A DNA stretch of 64,000 nt. It comes from Lentimicrobium sp. Lineage in GTDB: Bacteria > Bacteroidota > Bacteroidia > Bacteroidales > Lentimicrobiaceae. Shown in pieces: positions 1 to 2,645 of this stretch (its first letter is position 1; each line of letters starts with the position of its first letter). Below the pieces are notes generated by a model. The model searched no databases, was not told the DNA's origin, and saw nothing but the letters and a program-made list of their open reading frames with translations. The translations under genes were made by a program, and so were the position numbers. The stretch is taken from NCBI GenBank assembly GCA_019429275.1, contig JAHYJC010000016.1, forward strand, positions 1-64,000, read 5' to 3'.

Positions 1-120
1 TGCCGCCAGCTTCCTTCAGATTCCATCTCGCGATGGACACCCTTGCTCTTGGCTAACACTCCTTACTGTGAAGCGTGTTCGGGACTTGCACCCTATAGCT
101 GATATACATGCCTGACGCAC
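1..120 (-). mobile_element. Group II intron, class C (group IIC), 5' end of the ribozyme; rest lies beyond the window
   Basis: Read on the minus strand from position 120, the sequence begins GTGCGTCAGGC, the GUGYG start typical of group II introns. It continues with segments I recognise from domain I of the Oceanobacillus iheyensis group IIC intron: CTATAGGGTGCAAGTCCC, then GTTAGCC, GCAAGGGTGTCC and GGAATCTGAAGGAAGC. The first base falls immediately after the T run of a factor-independent terminator, which is the insertion site preferred by group IIC introns. Domains II-VI and any reverse transcriptase/maturase gene would lie to the left of position 1 and cannot be seen, so activity cannot be judged. 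Confidence 0.88.
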
Positions 121-147
121 AAAAAAAACCGCCGGAAAGCCCGGCGG
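121..147 (-). terminator. Intrinsic terminator of the DUF349 gene, occupied by the group II intron
   Basis: A 7-bp GC-rich stem (CCGCCGG at 129-135 with CCGGCGG at 141-147, 5-base loop) is followed on the minus strand by eight T residues at 128-121. It lies 11 bases after the stop codon of the DUF349 gene. The intron starts at the next base, 120. Confidence 0.9.
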
Positions 148-158
148 AAATTCAGATT

Positions 159-2645
159 TTACTGATTGGTTTCGCGAAGCATTTTCAGTTTTTCACCTAA
201 CAACCGAAGTTCTTCCTTGGCTTTTTCAATTTTCTTTTCAAACTCTTGTTTCAGCAGATTCGCTGTTTTTGAGTTTGCAAAGAATCCAATGTTATTTTCC
301 CATGTTTTAATTTCGTCCTGCAATTGCTGGATTTTTCCCTGCACAAAACTGCGCTCTTTGCTGATTATCTTACCTGCATCTGGCGAATCCTTTGTAATCC
401 GATCAACCCGCGCACGATAGTTCATAGTTCCAATCGAAACACTATCCATTTTGAGTTTTTCAAAATGTTTGTTGATGATTGCCCTGAATTCAGTCTGTAG
501 CTTTTCCTTTTCTTTTATGGGTACATGACCAATTCCCATCCATTGACGCTGGAATTCTTTGAGAGTGTCAATGGCTTCATTTCTGCTTTCACCAATTTCA
601 AATGCTTTTGCTTTTTCAATCAATTCAAGCTTGAGCTTCATATTTTCTTCTTCGTGTCCTGAAACATTTTTGAAGTATTCATTTTTTGCTGCAAAAAACT
701 CATCACAAGCAGCCCTGAACCTTTTCCATATTTTATCACTTTGCTTCCTTGGTACAGGCCCTAACTTCTTCCATTCATTCTGCATATTGATCAGTTCACG
801 GCTGGTATTGCGCCAATCGGTACTGGTTCTCAACGCTTCAGCCTGAAGGCATAAGTCAAGCTTAAGGTTGTAGTTATGCATCTGCTGCTCTTTCAGCTTA
901 TTATAGAAATCTTTCTTTGCATTGAAAAATGCGTCAAGCGATTTCTTAAATCGGGCCCAGATTTCATTGTTCTGCTTTTTGGGCGCTGGTCCCAGCGTCT
1001 TCCATATCTTAAGCAGTTCCGTCATCTGGTTTGTTGAATCCTGCCACGACTTTAGTGAATCATACTCAGAAGCAATGATTTGCTCTGCTTTTTCACATAA
1101 AATGGTTTTGGCCGAAAGGTTTTGTTCCAAACCCTCCTGCATTTCATTGTAATACTCTCTTCGCCTGTCATTTATCTTATCAGTTGCACTGCGGAAACGT
1201 TCCCACAATTCATCCTTTTTATCCTGTGGAACCGGACCAATCTCTTTCCATTCCTCATGATATTGTTGCAGATTCTTAAACGATTTTATAATTGATGTCT
1301 CAAGCAACAGTTCTTCGGCTTTGCCACAAAGTTCAATTTTTGCTTCAAGATTTTTCTTTAGATCAAGGTCCTTTAACTCTTTATTGATTTTAACTTTGTC
1401 GAAAAATTTCTCAACCAGAAAATGGTAATTCTGCCAAAGGTTATTTATTTCGGCTTTGGGAACCATTCCAACCGCTTTCCAGCGATCCTGTAATATTTTA
1501 AATTCGTCGTAGGTTTTCTTCAGGGTTTCTTCCGAACTAATCAATGCCTTCAGTTCTTCAAGAATTTTATTTTTGGCTTCAAGGTTCTGAATTTTCAGCT
1601 TTTCCTGCCCTTCATTAAACCTGAATTTATTCTGCTTGTAGATTTGAAAAGCAGCTTTAAACTTTTCTTCAACTTCATCATCAGGTATAACGGTTACCTC
1701 AATACTTTCAACATCAGGATTATTCGTTGATTCTACAAGTTTTTGATAAGCTTCGTGCTTAAATTCCTTGTTGAGTTTCAGAAACGCTACCTTAATCTTC
1801 GAAACATCATCTTTGATCTTGTTAACATCTTCTTCTTTTACCAGCTCTTCAAGTCTGGCAACCAACTCCTCACGCGTCATTCCATCCAGATCATCCACAT
1901 TTTCTTCCTCTGCTTCTTCCTCCTGATCATCTGACTCTTCATCGTCGGTTTTATCACCTTCGGGAGTTTTTGGAGTTTCATCAACTATAACCTCAGTGAC
2001 TTCACTTGCTTCAATTAGAGTTTCGCTAATTAATTCGGCAGTTGATGCTACTTCTGCGACAGGAAGCATTGAATCAACCCCATCAGCACCTTCGGCCTCC
2101 TCCAGAGGCTCGGGAGAACTATTATCGGCCATTAGCTCAGGTTCTTGGACGGCCTGAATTTGATCAGGTTCATCTGCAACTGAAAGTTCAGCTTGTTCAG
2201 CAACTTCAGATACAGCATCCGCAATCACTTCTGGAACAGTCGCTTCAACCTCCGGTTGTGCTGATTCTGCCACAATTATATCCTCAGAATCTTCAGCCAA
2301 AACGGGTTCAATCGGTTCATCAGTATCCGATTTAACTTCCACTATAGTTTCTGCAACACTCTCTTCAACTTCATTTTCAATTTTTTCAGTTAAAGCAGGT
2401 TGCTCAGGTTGATCCGAAACATTTAATTCCATTACAGGCATTTTACCGGGTTCTTCAGGACTCATTTCATCAGGTAGCGGCTCATTGTCTTTAGAAGGCA
2501 AAGACTCTATCGTATCAGTCAATAGTTCTGATTCATCAGGATTTGCTGAAATGTTTTCGAAATTGGAGTCGGAGGCCAAAGAATCTTGTTCCGGGAGGGA
2601 ATTAATTTTTTCTGATGACTCATCAGATTGTGGTTTGGTTTTCAT
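159..2645 (-). CDS. DUF349 repeat protein with long acidic N-terminal region
   Basis: This 828-residue protein has two parts. The first third, to about residue 260, is very rich in Glu, Asp, Ser and Pro and looks disordered. The rest is a highly charged helical region with five DUF349 repeats. Each repeat carries a W-K-x-hydrophobic-G-x-x-P core (for example WKAVGMVP, WKEIGPVP, WKTLGPAP, WKKLGPVP and WMGIGHVP) followed by LW-x-x-F and a basic helix. DUF349 proteins of this architecture are common in Bacteroidota, but their role is not established. No signal peptide is present, so it is probably cytoplasmic. The ATG at 2645 gives the expected acidic start. It is a single-gene unit with its own terminator. 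Confidence 0.85.
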   Translation of the reverse strand: MKTKPQSDESSEKINSLPEQDSLASDSNFENISANPDESELLTDTIESLPSKDNEPLPDEMSPEEPGKMPVMELNVSDQPEQPALTEKIENEVEESVAETIVEVKSDTDEPIEPVLAEDSEDIIVAESAQPEVEATVPEVIADAVSEVAEQAELSVADEPDQIQAVQEPELMADNSSPEPLEEAEGADGVDSMLPVAEVASTAELISETLIEASEVTEVIVDETPKTPEGDKTDDEESDDQEEEAEEENVDDLDGMTREELVARLEELVKEEDVNKIKDDVSKIKVAFLKLNKEFKHEAYQKLVESTNNPDVESIEVTVIPDDEVEEKFKAAFQIYKQNKFRFNEGQEKLKIQNLEAKNKILEELKALISSEETLKKTYDEFKILQDRWKAVGMVPKAEINNLWQNYHFLVEKFFDKVKINKELKDLDLKKNLEAKIELCGKAEELLLETSIIKSFKNLQQYHEEWKEIGPVPQDKKDELWERFRSATDKINDRRREYYNEMQEGLEQNLSAKTILCEKAEQIIASEYDSLKSWQDSTNQMTELLKIWKTLGPAPKKQNNEIWARFKKSLDAFFNAKKDFYNKLKEQQMHNYNLKLDLCLQAEALRTSTDWRNTSRELINMQNEWKKLGPVPRKQSDKIWKRFRAACDEFFAAKNEYFKNVSGHEEENMKLKLELIEKAKAFEIGESRNEAIDTLKEFQRQWMGIGHVPIKEKEKLQTEFRAIINKHFEKLKMDSVSIGTMNYRARVDRITKDSPDAGKIISKERSFVQGKIQQLQDEIKTWENNIGFFANSKTANLLKQEFEKKIEKAKEELRLLGEKLKMLRETNQ

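Follow-up and report, generated by a model that had tools for sequence, protein, structure and literature searches.

The left end of the window, the 64,000-nt stretch of DNA analysed here, very probably carries a mobile group IIC (bacterial class C) intron, one of at least 17 copies that have arisen recently in its genome, which is of Bacteroidota type to judge by its gene content. Read on the minus strand from 147, a stem-loop (147-129) runs into eight T residues (128-121) and then into GTGCGTCAGG from 120 (Table 1). Both the 7-bp stem with its T run and the intron start behind it are found where the original prediction had put them, and the sequence blocks listed for the 5′ domain of a class C intron are present as described. 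Rfam family RF02001 (group-II-D1D4-3) matches window positions 37-1 (minus strand) with 32.6 bits (gathering score 32), a value that is marginal by itself and belongs to a match ended by the contig edge; the longer copies on contigs C16 and C2 score 147.7 and 147.0 bits, and the covariance search that had been proposed as a check thus supports the prediction. Contig C19 begins with the window, and the element runs off it at window base 1. The contig stops within the element because the latter is repetitive and, since it stops there, the maturase and domain V sit on other contigs. The neighbouring DUF349 gene is intact, in agreement with the claim that the element lies downstream of it without disrupting it.

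Table 1 Features at the left end of the window
Feature	Position	Strand	Remarks
Probable group IIC intron, first 120 nt; start of domain I	1..120	-	5′ end GTGCG at 120; RF02001 match 37-1; 17 genome copies
T8 of the terminator, 5′ exon with putative IBS1; T's -1 to -4 can pair with EBS1 AAAA	121..128	-	
Terminator stem-loop CCGCCGG-GCTTT-CCGGCGG, 7-bp stem, dG -13.9 kcal/mol	129..147	-	Stem-loop at the same place, intron-free, in relatives
DUF349-repeat protein gene, 828 aa, intact, upstream of the terminator	159..2645	-	PF03993, 5 stretches

Copies, boundaries and coding content

A search of the 4.19-Mb genome (108 contigs) with the 160-nt 5′ end returns 17 matches, and the 3′ end is present in 16 copies. 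Fifteen of the 17 5′-end matches lie at most 11 nt from a contig end; the copies on C16 and C2 extend for 730 and 734 nt before their contigs end, and both reach the start of the reverse transcriptase (RT) frame. C35 holds the complete RT frame (424 aa) with domains V and VI behind it, the last part of the RT is also present on C51, and positions summed across contigs give an element of about 1986 nt (~1.99 kb). The 5′ end reads GTGCG in 16/17 copies (GTTCG in L016) and the 3′ end ...CGAT in 15/16 (...CAAT in C35) when the following T is taken as exon, which corresponds to the GUGYG and AY ends of class C introns. Fourteen of the 17 5′ ends are identical as far as they can be compared, at most 118 nt (117 in L012 and 83 in L017), and the window copy shares its 5′ 120 nt with most other copies; from this lack of difference the burst looks recent. 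Seventeen copies of a 160-nt end in one genome rule out a chance match, and the normal domain order rules out circular permutation. That the copies in this genome lack an ORF is likewise rejected, as all 15 of the 15 3′ ends, and C35, hold the last RT codons directly before domain V. The intron accounts for 33 contig ends of the draft genome (17 5′ and 16 3′). A T homopolymer directly before the RT start codon differs in length between L004 and L009 (9 against 11).

The maturase and the domain V hairpin that were to be sought beyond the contig edge are both found on other contigs of the genome. The RT/maturase of C35 scores 408 bits against TIGR04416, and its Pfam matches at E ≤ 0.001 are RVT_1 (PF00078) and GIIM (PF08388) only, with no endonuclease domain seen at this threshold. 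Compared with solved structures, it matches the GsI-IIC RT (6ar1) best in the PDB (434 bits, residues 1-414 of 424), followed by the RT of 7uim (396 bits), which we take to be that of the Eubacterium rectale IIC intron (the record gives the molecule name only), and LtrA (126 bits). It thus aligns over nearly its full length with two IIC enzymes from other hosts and of diverged sequence. By its scores against these references it is a probable class C RT without a visible endonuclease domain. The nearest named relatives found, in Oceanobacillus, Paucisalibacillus and Gracilibacillus, are 57-58% identical. Domain V scores 44.9 bits against RF00029 (cut-off 40) at 15 of the 16 3′ ends and 37.8 bits, below the cut-off, on C35. 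Domains V-VI fold at -41.9 kcal/mol (z = -7.84) into a hairpin with a 2-nt bulge and a second hairpin with a bulged A, placed by the predicted fold 7 nt from the 3′ end; these are the domain V and domain VI hairpins of the class.

The DUF349 gene is present in 19/19 genus genomes searched, own included, and this allows us to look for the far side of the window copy. Among the 16 3′ flanks, only that at the right end of C57 (L029) matches the regions downstream of DUF349 in relatives (E ≤ 1e-5, 58/58 rows, 18 relatives). The match is to one gene, present in 14/18 relatives. Its distance downstream of DUF349 is 270-432 nt in five of them (L083, L086, L089, L091, L093) and ~1.1-1.4 kb in the other nine; on C57 this gene starts ~150 nt past the intron, and the last RT codons, domain V and domain VI adjoin it. 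On the strength of this synteny we place C57 across the gap as the probable 3′ side of the window copy. A stem-loop of dG -13.6 or lower stands right behind the DUF349 stop in 15/18 relatives, mostly with a T-rich tail, a count that comes without a control of its own; L088 and L095, in which the frame runs past the aligned end, are outside this scoring. In L093 the stem-loop is without a clean T run, and in L099 it has four T's only; L096, which is not among the 15, has a stem-loop that lacks a T run. The intron motif is absent behind DUF349 in 18/18 relatives (L096 offers 132 nt only).

Target sites and exon recognition

The 17 copies constitute a natural set of target sites. A hairpin of dG ≤ -11 kcal/mol ending at most 15 nt from the insertion is found in 15/17 5′ flanks (L014 reaches only -5.8, and L011 has none), as compared with 54/300 T-rich and 48/300 random control sites from the window (Fisher p = 3e-9 vs T-rich); since ~18% of control sites pass the threshold, the test rests on this contrast. 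Insertion directly behind intrinsic terminators, which had been anticipated for other copies, is therefore seen at 15 of the 17 sites. A same-strand stop-free frame of at least 90 codons ends at most 125 nt upstream at 10/17 sites, and in L006 and L016 the insertion closely follows a tRNA gene. Position -2 is T in 17/17 5′ ends and +1 is T in 16/16 3′ ends. The proposed location at the terminator T run holds, but the intron does not begin after the last T, as had been claimed: the T at +1 means that it lies inside the run. Related introns also start right behind a hairpin, as judged by eye, in seven cases in genome G002 and in one each in G005 and G006.

Two of the sites, L009 and L017, are at copies of one dispersed palindrome and hence are not independent. 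This palindrome is 33 nt long, GACCTAACAAG...CTTGTTAGGTC, and the intron sits directly behind these two copies of it. A genome search allowing up to 3 mismatches gives 10 matches, and the reversed control gives 0.

Pairing score alone could not be used to find EBS1, since a T run will pair with every purine run; for this reason we took EBS1 from the Rfam RF02001 alignment, in which the loop was read by eye. In the alignment that scores 147.7 bits, the putative EBS1 loop AAAACAA faces the exon TTTT. In relative G007 the loop reads CUAACAAA and the 5′ exon ends in TTTTTTAG, i.e., both sides differ together, and this apparent two-sided change, seen against one relative, is consistent with an EBS1-IBS1 pairing. 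It is worth noting that IBS1 position -4 mismatches EBS1 in 6/17 sites, and that the C of EBS1 would lie opposite position -5, which is T in 15 sites and A in 2.

Class assignment, proposed mechanism and alternatives

The class C reading is supported by the RT scores, the lack of an endonuclease, the Rfam D1-D4-3 and domain V matches, the EBS1 loop and the placement behind hairpins. Insertion behind intrinsic terminators is described for class C (group IIC) introns of the B.h.I1 type, for which PMC4424553, PMC7161350 and PMC3522654 cite Robart et al. 2007. With these introns, as presented there, the present one shares the terminator hairpin with short putative IBS1/IBS3, the small ribozyme, the multiple copies and the endonuclease-lacking RT in domain IV. 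Passages of PMC7161350, PMC4424553, PMC3522654 and PMC8919778 further characterize IIC introns by stem-loop recognition at the 5′ splice site, the use of EBS1/EBS3 only, no endonuclease, a position behind terminators and rare transcription. The anatomy and target choice observed here fit these published introns; the sequence is new, and no new mechanism is seen. Circularly permuted group II introns (PMC8637638) have the same domains, whereas here their order is normal, with the 5′ end by the terminator and domains V-VI at the 3′ end.

Based on published IIC work, we propose that read-through transcription would supply the intron RNA, from which the ribozyme (domains I-VI) and its own maturase/RT could excise the intron by splicing with branching. 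The resulting ribonucleoprotein would recognise the DNA terminator stem-loop together with a few base pairs, namely EBS1 AAAA with IBS1 TTTT and a putative EBS3 with the T at +1. Reverse splicing into the T run may then be followed by copying of the intron by the RT, probably primed by the replication fork, which we suggest because no endonuclease is present.

Several other readings of the element must be weighed. It could belong to a sister RT class (g6, U1 or U2) that also targets terminators instead of to class C proper: according to PMC8919778, nearly half of the introns directly behind terminators had other RT types such as these, which are close to class C on its tree. The near full-length match to the GsI-IIC RT, the best among the solved structures compared, and the identity to the RTs of Oceanobacillus, Paucisalibacillus and Gracilibacillus argue for class C, and we regard a sister class as quite improbable. 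A dead or 5′-only fragment in the window is also unlikely. Such a reading could draw on the 120 nt that alone are visible at the contig end, the middle of the copy being outside the assembly, and on a decayed relative on C65 whose RT frame is interrupted by stops; against it stand the flank on C57, where the end of the RT and domains V and VI lie beside the syntenic gene, and the identity of the 120 nt to most other copies.

That all 17 5′ copies leave a contig end inside the element might instead suggest an assembly artefact, yet every end has its own flank and all share one common intron boundary. Stubs of 117-130 nt, present on 14/17 contigs, are typical of k-mer assemblies broken at a repeat, and related introns are whole within contigs of other genomes, which makes an artefact exceedingly improbable. 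The class C intron remains our preferred reading.

ORF-less relatives and other introns

The 120-nt intron end matches 7/60 genomes, and the RT matches 10/19 genus genomes (E ≤ 0.001), own included in both counts; the best RT identity outside the own genome is 48%. In G007 we find a 676-nt ORF-less intron with GTGCG...CGAT ends (L101, C82 2143-2818, minus strand) and, at a different site, a second, 5′-cut copy (L132, C72) with 465/474 aligned nt identical. This genome (89% complete) has no RVT_1 match and no match to the RT. The G007 5′ exon is known for 8 nt only and stands outside the hairpin comparison. The lack of an RVT_1 match in G002 is uninformative, as this genome is 79% complete and contig ends interrupt its introns.

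The G007 intron has matches in 78/295 genomes of the order. We took 14 regions from 13 of the 78 and scanned 8 of them with Rfam; L169 was read, L167 and L174 served as RT-bearing comparisons, and L162, L166 and L170 were left out. Two further intact ORF-less introns were found, in G235 (L163, 650 nt) and G097 (L172, 686 nt with one exon T included in the cut), both right behind strong terminator hairpins. The ORF-less introns of G007, G235 and G097 (650-685 nt) keep domains I-VI and both ends, and their longest stop-free frames are 104, 63 and 80 aa, respectively. In G007 and G097, domain IV can be aligned with its counterpart in the RT-bearing G153 intron until close to the RT of the latter, so that the loss of the RT looks like a clean removal. 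RT genes or fragments are found elsewhere in the G235 and G097 genomes. The G007 intron keeps a domain IV hairpin at the site of maturase binding. It is possible, and we suggest it tentatively, that relatives of the intron in this order have shed their RT cleanly, either repeatedly or once with later spread, and form a lineage that is not autonomous and would depend on maturases acting in trans, although in G007 no such helper is visible. A literature search for such introns gave, among the papers listed, general ones on ORF-less introns, and Bacteroidales was named in none of a set of 12, which is not proof of novelty.

Other candidates were rejected as intact ORF-less introns: decay or internal deletion has affected the copies in G238, G202, G099 and G299, and in the G230 copies a partial, broken RT is still present. 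Miniature relatives with internal deletions, 228-374 nt long and with both intron ends preserved, occur in G299 (L164), G202 (L165) and G099 (L171), and G202 has two neighbouring miniature copies.

A second, related intron type starts with GTGTG and is represented by L019 (C65, decayed), L110 (G006) and L111 (G009). In the three genomes these introns have a very similar 100-nt upstream flank holding CTTGTTGTACGC, possibly an integron attC-type target. The own genome holds two other group II introns, one on C59 (L022; RF01999 87.6 bits, RF00029 63.9 bits) and one on C9 (L020/L038), where the RT has 436 aa and the domain V score falls just short of the cut-off.
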